Source: an uncultured Pelagibacteraceae bacterium (GTDB lineage: Bacteria > Pseudomonadota > Alphaproteobacteria > Pelagibacterales > Pelagibacteraceae). From it: a stretch of DNA of 64,000 nt. The notes below the pieces were generated by a model. It ran no database searches. It saw nothing but the letters and a program-made list of their open reading frames with translations, and was not told where the DNA came from. The stretch spans positions 1 through 64,000 of the forward strand of contig CACMND010000002.1 in assembly GCA_902614975.1 (NCBI GenBank), read 5' to 3'. This document shows positions 715-3,499 of this stretch, one piece after another (within the stretch, counting starts at the first letter, position 1; the number at the start of each line of letters is the position of its first letter). Made by a program: the position numbers and the translations under genes.

Positions 715-1205
715 AGAATTTGTATTTCAGTTTTCTTGCTCAACAATTTTAACATTATTAAGAAATCTTTTTCTGCAAGTCCAATACATCCTGCGGTGGG
801 TCTATAATTTTTTGTTAAGTGTATAAAAATAGCACTACCTCTCCCAATTTTTGGTTTATTCCAATTGTACTTAATTGGAATTAAAAAATTGTATTTGTAG
901 TCATGTCGGAATAATCTTTCGCATTTTAATTTAGAATTTAAATTTATTAATTTATTATATTTATTTAATGAATTAATATCATCGCACCAACCCATATGTT
1001 TTCTTATCTCGAACACTTTCAATTTTGTTTTAGGAAGTTTCTTTCTATCTTTTCTGAAATACAGTGGTCCTAGCGCATACCTTCCAGTAGGTGTTTTTTT
1101 ATCCCCTTCATATTTATTTTTTGAAAATCCATTTTTTCCAACGCAACATTTAAATTTAAAATCACCAAAAATTAGTGTATGTTTATTTTTTACAATAATT
1201 GTCAT
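711..1205 (-). CDS. L,D-transpeptidase (YkuD) family protein without signal peptide
   Basis: A small 164-residue YkuD-fold protein. The catalytic signature is H129 in IFIHL followed by TAGCIGL with the nucleophile C140, matching the family pattern H-x(n)-[ST]-x-GC. GDKKTPTGRYALG near residues 35-46 is the other typical block. Family members cross-link peptidoglycan or attach proteins to it in the periplasm. I see no hydrophobic leader at the N-terminus (MTIIVKNKHTLIFG), so export is not explained by the sequence. Only about 10 bases separate its start from the divergent winged-helix gene, so the two probably share a control region. Confidence 0.8.
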   Translation of the reverse strand: MTIIVKNKHTLIFGDFKFKCCVGKNGFSKNKYEGDKKTPTGRYALGPLYFRKDRKKLPKTKLKVFEIRKHMGWCDDINSLNKYNKLINLNSKLKCERLFRHDYKYNFLIPIKYNWNKPKIGRGSAIFIHLTKNYRPTAGCIGLAEKDFLIMLKLLSKKTEIQIL

Positions 1206-1215
1206 CTTTATATTT

Positions 1216-1779
1216 ATGAGTTTAAACCAATCTTTAATTATTTATAGGTTTCCAACATTATTCAAGATATTAAATGAAATAAAAAGTAATTTAAATTTTA
1301 ATATTGAATACTTTAATGATGACCAATTTAAAAAAAATCTGAATAATAGAAATTTCGTAGTTATTTCAGGAGATAACAAGAAAAATTTTCAAAACCAGCT
1401 TAAAATCGAGGAATTTCCATTAGATATCCAAAAATTTATTGAAATCGTTAATGTCCAATTTTTAAAAAATAAATTTAATCAGCAGAACAATGTCAAAACA
1501 GGTAGATATAGTATCAATTTAAACTCAAGGGTTATGCTATTTGATGAAAAATCACTTCAGCTAACAGAGAAAGAAATGAAAATAATAAGTTTTCTAAATA
1601 ATTCTAAGGGACCAGTAAAGATAAATAAACTGCAATCAGAAGTTTGGGGATATAAGTCAAAATTAGAAACTCATACTGTTGAAACCCATGTCTATAGACT
1701 AAGAAAAAAAGTTGAAAAAAAATTCAATGATAAATCATTTATAATCAGTTTGAAAAATGGCTATAAAATCGAAAATTAA
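1216..1779 (+). CDS. winged-helix (OmpR/PhoB-type) DNA-binding protein, orphan
   Basis: 187 residues. The last 85 or so form a Trans_reg_C winged helix: LTEKEMKIISFL, then the recognition-helix segment THTVETHVYRLRKKV and the wing FIISLKNGYKIEN. The first 80 residues resemble a receiver domain in length and strand pattern, but I cannot find the acidic pocket and phospho-acceptor aspartate of a working receiver. No histidine kinase gene is nearby. It may be a phosphorylation-independent regulator; its targets are unknown. Its last 23 bases overlap the start of the arfA-like gene in another frame, so the two are probably co-transcribed. Confidence 0.75.
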   Translation: MSLNQSLIIYRFPTLFKILNEIKSNLNFNIEYFNDDQFKKNLNNRNFVVISGDNKKNFQNQLKIEEFPLDIQKFIEIVNVQFLKNKFNQQNNVKTGRYSINLNSRVMLFDEKSLQLTEKEMKIISFLNNSKGPVKINKLQSEVWGYKSKLETHTVETHVYRLRKKVEKKFNDKSFIISLKNGYKIEN

Positions 1780-1885
1780 AAAAAACCAATTTGCAAAAGA
1801 ATTATTTACTAAGAAATATAAGCAAAGAGTTGTAAAACCAAAAAAAGGGAAAGGAAGCTTTAGTAGAAAAAATACTAAAGTCTAG
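1757..1885 (+). CDS. arfA: ArfA-like alternative ribosome-rescue factor (42 aa)
   Basis: A 42-residue basic protein. Its centre, RVVKPKKGKGSFSRK (residues 24-38), matches the conserved core of ArfA, whose E. coli counterpart reads RVEKNKKGKGSYMRK, and the upstream FAKELFTKKYKQ fits the ArfA helix that precedes it. ArfA binds ribosomes stalled on mRNAs lacking a stop codon and recruits RF2 to release the peptide, backing up tmRNA. The start lies inside the 3' end of the winged-helix gene and the 3' end overlaps the convergent adenosine kinase stop. An 8-bp hairpin sits in the last ten codons, as in the E. coli gene. ArfA is best known in beta- and gammaproteobacteria, so its presence here is notable. 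Identification is by motif only. Confidence 0.8.
   Translation: MAIKSKIKKNQFAKELFTKKYKQRVVKPKKGKGSFSRKNTKV
1858..1880 (+). promoter_or_regulatory. hairpin inside the arfA-like coding sequence
   Basis: CTTTAGTA, a 7-base GAAAAAA loop, then TACTAAAG: a perfect 8-bp stem beginning at codon 34 (Ser of KGKGS) and ending just before the stop. In E. coli a hairpin in the same relative place makes arfA mRNA end without a stop codon, by termination or RNase III cleavage, so that tmRNA keeps ArfA low. The stem could equally act as a terminator for the convergent adenosine kinase transcript, since on that strand it is followed a little later by a T run. Function is inferred. Confidence 0.6.
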
Positions 1886-2804
1886 CTCCAATCTGCTGTA
1901 TCACCTTTGAAGACATTTCTCTTCCTTTGTCCAAACACTGTTTAGTATCTAATTTATTTAAATATCCATGTAAATAACCAGCTGCAAATAAATCACCTGC
2001 ACCTGTAAGATCTTTCACTTCTAAATTTTTGAATACATCATTTTCTATTACCTCATTATCAAATATTGAAACAGCTCCTTTTTCTCCGCGAGTAATTACA
2101 AGATGTTTCTTTAAACTTTTACCAAAATCAATTACTTGATTAAAATTTTCAGCGTCAATTAATGACATCATCTCTTGTTCGTTAGCAAAGGTAATATCTA
2201 ATTTATTTTTTACTAAATCTAAAAAATTAGCTTTATGTCTATCCACACAAAATTTATCTGATAAGGACATAGCAACTTTATTTGCACTCTTAATTGCTTT
2301 TTCAAATGCATTTTTGGGTTCGCCCTCATCCCACAAATAACCTTCTAGGAAAATCATTTCAGACTGTTTTATGACGTCATTGTTTATATCATTTTCATTA
2401 ATTTTTCCTGCAATACCTAAAAATGTGCACATTGTCCTTTCTGAGTCTGGAGTTATTAAAATTAAGCATGTCCCAGTTGGTAAATCTTCTTTTTTTTTTG
2501 AGTAAAAATATTCAACTTTTTCTGATTTTAATCCATCTTCATACTTAGATCCCAGTTCATCATCGCTAACTTTCCCGATAAAACCTGCTTTATTTTTTAG
2601 TTGAGATAATCCAACAATAGAATTAGCCACTGATCCACCAGATATGGTTTTTTCGATTTTAAGACTTGATAACATTGATTGAAATTCTTGTTTATCGAAA
2701 ATCAATTTCATAGTTCCTTTTGTTAATTTATTTTGATCAATAAAATTTTCATCAACTTTACAAATTACATCAACAATTGCATTTCCGATCCCTAATATTT
2801 TCAT
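1875..2804 (-). CDS. PfkB-family adenosine kinase-like sugar/nucleoside kinase
   Basis: 309 residues from the chosen start. It has the PfkB family N-terminal block MKILGIGNAIVDV, the substrate-binding GGSVANS near residue 56, and the C-terminal signature DLTGAGDLFAAGYL with the catalytic aspartate. The protein most resembles alphaproteobacterial adenosine kinase-like enzymes, which phosphorylate adenosine or a related ribosyl compound; the exact substrate cannot be read from sequence. The open frame extends 24 codons further upstream, but that would run through the preceding gene's stop. The ATG at 2804, two bases after that stop, gives the normal family N-terminus. Confidence 0.88.
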   Translation of the reverse strand: MKILGIGNAIVDVICKVDENFIDQNKLTKGTMKLIFDKQEFQSMLSSLKIEKTISGGSVANSIVGLSQLKNKAGFIGKVSDDELGSKYEDGLKSEKVEYFYSKKKEDLPTGTCLILITPDSERTMCTFLGIAGKINENDINNDVIKQSEMIFLEGYLWDEGEPKNAFEKAIKSANKVAMSLSDKFCVDRHKANFLDLVKNKLDITFANEQEMMSLIDAENFNQVIDFGKSLKKHLVITRGEKGAVSIFDNEVIENDVFKNLEVKDLTGAGDLFAAGYLHGYLNKLDTKQCLDKGREMSSKVIQQIGARL

Positions 2805-2806
2805 AT

Positions 2807-3499
2807 TTACATTTTTGTCCATTCGTTTAGTGGAGGCATACCCATCTCCAAAAGATTTGAATCTTTTGCTATACACACAATATCTGCTGATATAGAAATT
2901 CTTTCATCATTACTTTCGGTAGGTTGTGTAGAATGAATTGTTTTTGAGGGAAAAATTATAATGTCATTTTCTTCAACATTAACAATTGCCTGAGTTACAT
3001 TAAAGGGATTCATTTTTTTAACTATACCTTTCTGTAATGCTGTATCTGATCTGAAAATACCAGGCATAATTTCATTTTTATAACTTTCATCAAACATAAC
3101 AAGATTTGAATCTTGTTTATTCTTTTTCAAATAGAATGCAAAAGAAATATGTGATTGAAAATGTCTGTGTTTTTTTATTCTTTCATTTCCTTCTGAAATA
3201 GTTGCCCAGGATCTTTGGATGTATAAATCTATTAATTTGCTATCAATTTCGACACAATTTAAATATTCCCATATTCTTTTAGTAATTTCGTTAAAAAGAT
3301 TTTGGAATTTTACGTTCTTATGTATAAACTCATAACCTTGTGTATCTCCAGTCCAAGCATTAGTTTTAGTTTGGTAATTAGTATTTTTCGAATTTTTTTT
3401 CATATCTCTTATTTCATTAATCATTAGAGCTTTTTCATCATCTGAAATATCAATTTTGTCCTTGAGTATTGTTAGTGGAAAAAGATTTATTAAATTCAT
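2807..3499 (-). CDS. putative 2OG-Fe(II) oxygenase (TIGR02466-like)
   Basis: 230 residues with the double-stranded beta-helix features of a 2-oxoglutarate/Fe(II) dioxygenase. The iron ligand region is KHRHFQSHISFAFYLK, and the distal block is IIFPSKTIHSTQPT followed by ERISISAD, giving the distal histidine and the 2OG-binding arginine. Members of this group are common in marine alphaproteobacteria and phages; the substrate is not known. It sits between nth and the adenosine kinase on the same strand with gaps of 0-2 bases, so it is almost certainly in one transcript with them. Confidence 0.75.
   Translation of the reverse strand: MNLINLFPLTILKDKIDISDDEKALMINEIRDMKKNSKNTNYQTKTNAWTGDTQGYEFIHKNVKFQNLFNEITKRIWEYLNCVEIDSKLIDLYIQRSWATISEGNERIKKHRHFQSHISFAFYLKKNKQDSNLVMFDESYKNEIMPGIFRSDTALQKGIVKKMNPFNVTQAIVNVEENDIIIFPSKTIHSTQPTESNDERISISADIVCIAKDSNLLEMGMPPLNEWTKM

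Follow-up and report, generated by a model that had tools for sequence, protein, structure and literature searches.

A short-form ArfA-family gene in SAR11 bacteria, beyond the published range of ArfA

Small ribosome-rescue factors and the SAR11 locus

The ribosome-rescue factor ArfA (YhdL) of E. coli carries 34 residues after its KKGKGS motif, which is the mRNA-channel-binding motif of ArfA according to the available parts of PMC6299226 and PMC5378476. As described in excerpts of PMC3989581, a hairpin in its message leads, via RNase III or early termination, to a stop-less message, tmRNA keeps ArfA low, and the full-length protein is unstable through its hydrophobic tail. The accessible text of PMC5378476 reports that the protein is active when cut at Asn47, that shortening beyond Asn47 inactivates it, and that truncations after Met40 abolish release activity. 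The Francisella factor ArfT has 40 amino acids and a basic, KGKGS-like end, and according to passages of PMC6299226 neither a terminator nor an RNase III site precedes its stop codon, which makes it a precedent for an unregulated short factor. Bacillus BrfA is likewise a small factor that recruits RF2 (excerpts of PMC8012679 and PMC11633108), and its origin is disputed, being an ArfA homologue in the available part of PMC11633108 and a product of unrelated evolution as suggested in that of PMC8012679. As to the taxonomic range, the review PMC8012679, in the portion available, restricts ArfA to the beta- and gamma-proteobacteria, and Table 1 of the survey PMC11633108 gives ArfA in 0 of 2,376 Alphaproteobacteria. 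No report of a chromosomal ArfA in SAR11 was present among the literature matches listed, and some SAR11 proteins may carry an automatic Pfam annotation.

The stretch of DNA analysed here (the window; 64,000 nucleotides from an uncultured Pelagibacteraceae bacterium) contains on its plus strand, at positions 1757..1885, a frame of 42 codons with an ATG start and a TAG stop, which translates to MAIKSKIKKNQFAKELFTKKYKQRVVKPKKGKGSFSRKNTKV followed by TAG. A reading made from the sequence alone, called here the sequence-only reading, had taken this frame for ArfA, and the family search bears it out: the Pfam ArfA model PF03889 matches the protein with 31.2 bits (E 1.4e-7) above a curated cut-off of 25.5, and with 29 bits in the search of the whole genome. 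PF03889 is the sole Pfam match of the 42-residue protein, which lacks the RF-1 domain PF00472 of ArfB and is matched by no NCBIfam model. In a phmmer search of PDB sequences, E. coli ArfA was the match, covering residues 4 to 39 (E 4.7e-4), where the N-terminal half and the KKGKGS[YF]xRK core align. The KGKGS motif with its flanking basic residues is present as KPKKGKGSFSRK, and the KKGKGS codons lie at 1841..1858 on the plus strand, as given by the SAR11 alignment and the PDB match to E. coli ArfA. The frame is a real gene, arfA, for a SAR11 member of the ArfA family and a predicted ribosome-rescue factor of short form. Compared with this protein, Francisella ArfT has KKGGSTNKK and can use RF1 or RF2, whereas the SAR11 protein matches PF03889.

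Upstream of arfA, on the same strand, lies a winged-helix gene (1216..1779), the 3' end of which runs 23 nt into the start of arfA; apart from a C-terminal Trans_reg_C domain, its product has no Pfam match at E 0.001. Downstream, on the minus strand, a gene for a PfkB-family kinase (1875..2876, the true start of which may be internal) converges with arfA and overlaps its frame by 11 nt. This neighbour, called adenosine kinase from the sequence alone, matches PfkB in Pfam but reaches no NCBIfam cut-off. The same arrangement was followed through 133 distinct SAR11 loci (153 listed minus 20 repeats), and the frame is kept between the winged-helix gene and the kinase in the SAR11 relatives. The position of the chosen arfA start was scorable in 76 loci, and in 74 of these it overlaps the upstream winged-helix frame; the other 57 have no recognisable upstream frame or start under the criteria used. 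The convergent kinase was recognised in 114 of the 133 loci, and the two frames overlap in 71 of these, by 4 to 14 nt in 69. In E. coli, arfA is likewise convergent with the next gene and overlaps its end, but the neighbours there are zntR and mscL instead of the winged-helix gene and the PfkB kinase. In addition, five genomes without arfA (99% complete, 1 to 3 contigs; L246, L249, L250, L252 and L253) have both neighbours intact and in unchanged order, with a spacing between kinase and winged-helix gene that ranges from a 4 nt overlap to 35 nt, and no frame with the ArfA core motif was found. Thus arfA behaves as a discrete unit, which can be absent while its neighbours stay whole and no more than 35 nt from each other.

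Distribution of arfA and of other rescue factors

Among 297 sampled genomes of the family, PF03889 matches 237, of which 159 are above the cut-off, and a SAR11 ArfA profile built from 18 SAR11 members matches 248, including 10 weak matches in genus g5. When only good genomes are counted (completeness of 90% or more, contamination of 5% or less), the SAR11 profile is matched in 106 of 128, three of them weak matches in g5, and 22 are without a match. Within the genus to which the window belongs, a search with its single protein gave matches in 267 of 399 genomes and in 45 of the 57 good ones. Over the 133 loci, the mean entropy at codon positions 1, 2 and 3 is 0.49, 0.41 and 1.15 bits, respectively, the third position being the most variable, and the invariant residues are KKGKGS, the Arg three residues further on and one Leu in the N-terminal half. 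The 133 loci were chosen by the KKGKGS motif and 80 loci were fetched by a KKGKGS pattern, so that the invariance of the motif is by construction, and the profile searches are unaffected by this. The arfA frame is under protein-level constraint across the 133 loci.

Across the class, PF03889 matches 10 of 385 alphaproteobacterial genomes, three of which are SAR11. Three of the seven other matches (L226, L227 and L228, in families f123 and f68) have ArfA-like frames with KGKGS or KGRGS, and for another three (L222, L223 and L225) a search for KGKGS-type motifs resolved no frame. The last one (L224) was set aside, as it looks spurious, being a long arginine-rich frame. Small proteins with the N-terminal half of ArfA, NP[IV]A..LRT.KF, and without GKGS (L254-L260) occur in genus g5, where two were read, and in the sister family f174, where five were. 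Alignment of these homologues with SAR11 ArfA gives an hhalign probability of 96.7 (E 3.9e-10), and the SAR11 profile reaches E 0.001 in just 6 of 49 genomes of f174. The ArfA-like ORFs of f174 follow an SDR-like gene and stand beside MFS-like or nitroreductase-like frames, all named by eye.

The genome of the window encodes a permuted tmRNA (RF01849, 228 bits) with the tag ANESYALAA as read by ARAGORN, as well as RF1 (490 bits, above the cut-off) and RF2 (prfB, 475.4 bits with a cut-off of 370). Of 41 relatives, 35 gave a tmRNA match, as did all 17 of the good ones. At one locus (L265, 388..764) ARAGORN places the tmRNA gene in a 20-base overlap with an opposite-strand tRNA-Leu (gag), which may be a boundary effect, because the Rfam tmRNA match ends earlier. 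No PF00472 match of the size of ArfB was found in the genome of the window. The number of PF00472 matches is at most two in 40 of the 41 relatives, the remaining one (G302) having three, two of them in shortened frames, and also at most two, all of release-factor size, in each of 27 chosen SAR11 genomes, 20 of which are without an ArfA match. The five near-complete genomes without arfA have no ArfB by PF00472 either. ArfB instead of, or beside, ArfA in SAR11 was thus considered and discarded, none being found with PF00472 in the 41 relatives and the 27 chosen genomes. Among 58 genomes of the class, the same search gave at least three matches in 19, some of them in frames of ArfB size; it can therefore pick up ArfB where there is one, and a very divergent one could escape PF00472. 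All of these 19 genomes are of 3.0 Mb or more, and the absence of ArfB looks common in members of the class with small genomes and not special to SAR11.

Relatives of the protein also occur in phages. Gp30 of phage HTVC027P, which infects HTCC1062 (phage report in PMC12753301, available in part), reads NPVAKEVRTPKY...KPKKGRGSFKR and is close in form to SAR11 ArfA, but it sits among phage genes; it is annotated just as hypothetical in GenBank. Another product, g10 of Citromicrobium phage RXM, is called ArfA in the available part of PMC8953757. A pattern scan found at least 211 IMG/VR stretches encoding an ArfA relative, and the record MN698241 also shows a phage copy. The viral loci kept comprise 80 from IMG/VR (L032-L111), all with a KKGKGS frame, and L261 (15768..15944, minus strand). 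The kinase context of the host was seen by the criterion used in 0 of the 80, of which 76 extend 600 nt or more past the frame. In a PHROGs scan of 10 neighbour proteins from six of the 80 loci, clamp loaders (L035, L036), a DNA-binding protein (L092), DNA methyltransferases (L072) and a terminase (L053) were recognised, L057 gave a weak hit only, and three proteins gave none. A tblastn search of named phages with a 35-residue ArfA peptide returned no match, perhaps because of the low-complexity filter.

The hairpin and the length of the protein

The sequence-only reading also described an exact 8-bp hairpin within arfA, running from the serine of KGKGS to before the stop, and this proved right. 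Frame and exact stem are both present: positions 1858..1865 (CTTTAGTA) pair with 1873..1880 (TACTAAAG), and a ninth pair, G-U, joins 1857 and 1881, which gives a plus-strand hairpin at 1857..1881 of nine pairs (eight Watson-Crick and one G-U) around a loop at 1866..1872. The stem begins in the Ser34 codon (1856..1858) and ends ahead of the stop codon at 1883..1885. For each locus, random synonymous recodings of the peptide that it encodes from KKGKGS to the stop served as the comparison. For the window, 2,000 recodings gave P 0.0075 for the stem and 0.0035 for the MFE, and dinucleotide shuffles of 46 nt gave z -2.5 on the plus strand and -1.3 on the minus strand; part of this significance comes from selection, as the window ranks first among the 133 loci tested. 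As a group, the 133 loci show no excess of structure, with a mean z of +0.2 and P<0.05 in five, about seven being expected. P<0.01 is reached in three (the window, L113 and L114), with about 1.3 expected, and these three are also the ones in which all nine pairs form, among the 31 loci of the same tail length. L113 has one double change, from T-A to C-G, that retains the pair, and no other such change was noticed. In L112, L117, L119, L169 and L201 a synonymous TTC codon breaks one pair and amino-acid changes break others, and the remaining loci of this tail length lose pairs via Phe to Tyr and other amino-acid changes. The stem is not conserved, and synonymous changes that destroy it, named beforehand in the sequence-only reading as grounds for refutation, are among those observed, which refutes the hairpin half of that reading on its own terms. 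Moreover, the right arm has a reason of its own for constancy, because the last codon and the stop of the kinase sit in it.

It had also been said that E. coli arfA has a hairpin in the same place, which is not so. The core stem of the E. coli control, which has about 22 pairs and belongs to a fold of -38 kcal/mol, starts at about codon 51, some 13 residues past the Ser of KGKGS, whereas the SAR11 stem starts at that Ser and has nine pairs with -8.7 kcal/mol. In the recoding test the E. coli control gave P 0.04 for the MFE and P 0.36 for the longest stem, which is interrupted; the test on single sequences is thus only moderately sensitive, and the argument about the hairpin rests mainly on non-conservation and position, not on P values. 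A conserved RNA element was rejected on the synonymous nulls (111 and then 133 loci), the non-conservation and the position, and most probably the hairpin of the window arose by local coincidence and is no E. coli-type control switch.

The length of the protein bears on the same question. The protein of the window has eight residues after KKGKGS; 100 of the 133 loci have 5 to 8, and none has more than 17, compared with the 34 of E. coli. The ends 5 to 8 residues past the motif correspond to positions 43 to 46 of E. coli ArfA, the protein of the window reaching 46, so that, by this comparison, SAR11 arfA would directly encode roughly the active length, close to the shortest active E. coli form and slightly short of it, which calls for caution against assuming full activity. 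With frames that stop so soon after KKGKGS, no long regulatory tail exists that would have to be removed. Cleavage within the left arm of the stem would leave ends equivalent to E. coli residues 38 to 41 and would be expected to inactivate the protein, because the truncations after Met40 are inactive, but a message ending just past the stem would lose the last residue or two only. For this reason the argument from truncation speaks to cleavage alone, and it is the lack of a terminator-like site that speaks to termination. Of the features of E. coli-type non-stop regulation, a tail beyond the active length and a strong hairpin after the core are both absent from arfA.

Interpretation of the locus

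In the reading proposed from the sequence alone, the hairpin would be cut by RNase III or would end transcription, and the resulting stop-less message would let tmRNA repress ArfA as in E. coli. The exact in-frame stem, improbable under synonymous recoding for the window, the retention of all nine pairs in L113 and L114 (in the former with the compensatory change), which with the window are the only loci below P 0.01, and the tmRNA in the genome are in its favour, as is the point that, with a 3' end just past the stem, almost all of the protein would still be encoded but no stop codon. However, just 3 of the 31 loci of equal tail length have the whole stem, the synonymous TTC being among the changes that break it elsewhere, the 133 loci show no excess of structure, nine pairs compare poorly with the E. 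coli fold, no terminator-like site is present at the locus, and the constancy of the right arm has another cause. RNase III was not found with the one model used (PF14622) in this 91%-complete genome, that model matching 8 of 14 control genomes, and a cut in the left arm falls where E. coli truncations inactivate. With the stem not conserved, no long tail and no terminator-like site, we regard such a circuit as quite unlikely. The other suggestion made with it, namely that the hairpin terminates the message of the convergent kinase, or those of both genes, draws on the convergence of the genes, on the kinase stop codon in the right arm and on an irregular T-rich stretch downstream of the stem on the minus strand. 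It is very unlikely too and was rejected as an explanation, because no terminator-like site occurs on either strand within 1100..2400 and the minus-strand folds are near those of shuffles (z -1.3 for 46 nt and 0.04 for 90 nt); furthermore, the convergent arrangement is conserved but the stem is not.

Control without a hairpin could be imagined if the convergent transcripts of arfA and the kinase formed double-stranded RNA, the processing of which would trim arfA messages to stop-less ones. The overlaps of 4 to 14 nt in most loci where the frames overlap, and the similar overlap of E. coli arfA with the end of mscL, are consistent with it, but RNase III was not detected in the genome and gene overlaps are routine in compact genomes, so we consider it extremely unlikely. 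A protein of ArfA descent with another small ribosome- or RNA-binding role, or one in decay, is hinted at by the divergent homologues without GKGS in g5 and f174, by the 22 of 128 good genomes without a match and by ends slightly shorter than the shortest active E. coli form. The invariance of the Arg and Leu and, by selection of the loci, of KKGKGS, together with the protein-level constraint, speaks against this, and we hold it to be unlikely.

We consider it probable that the gene encodes a pre-truncated ArfA, made from an ordinary message with a stop codon, that would work together with RF2, backing up tmRNA as the only Arf-type factor recognised. Homology, conservation, synteny, the co-occurrence of tmRNA, RF1 and RF2, the lack of an ArfB match and the lack of a conserved hairpin point to this reading. 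The protein ends eight residues past KKGKGS and lacks the long C-terminal tail of E. coli ArfA; as the coding sequence covers roughly the active length and closes with a normal stop codon, arfA is presumably outside the non-stop/tmRNA control of E. coli, which also sets it apart from Bacillus BrfA, made from a stop-less message according to the available excerpts. Its expression would probably follow that of the overlapping winged-helix gene by transcriptional or translational coupling, or could be constitutive. The product would recruit RF2, as BrfA does, and rescue non-stop ribosomes. Because tmRNA is present and ArfB is not detected, arfA is the only Arf-type back-up recognised. The SAR11 form shares with E. 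coli ArfA the PF03889 match above cut-off, the company of tmRNA and RF2 and the convergent 3' overlap, and differs from it in being alphaproteobacterial, with no ArfB found alongside, in its short end and in having no conserved strong hairpin. What stands of the earlier interpretation is an ArfA-family gene in a streamlined alphaproteobacterium, with its frame kept between the same neighbours; the autoregulated hairpin circuit does not.

More tentatively, and as a possibility that we consider rather less than even, the short ArfA could be ancestral to the Pelagibacterales and their only Arf-type back-up, uncoupled from tmRNA control and shared with phages that supply ArfA during infection, as HTVC027P may do. 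It might then have been reworked in the sister family f174 and in genus g5 into a version without the KGKGS channel-binding core, which would have to recognise ribosomes differently.

A real and widely conserved short-form ArfA is present in SAR11, beyond the published range of ArfA. That most genomes sampled from an abundant ocean lineage have it, with no ArfB beside it, redraws the map of ribosome rescue. Judging by how many viral copies there are, phages seem to bring rescue capacity with them into infection. A short form that stops near the E. coli cut site offers a natural test of whether the control of ArfA by tmRNA is essential or a later addition.
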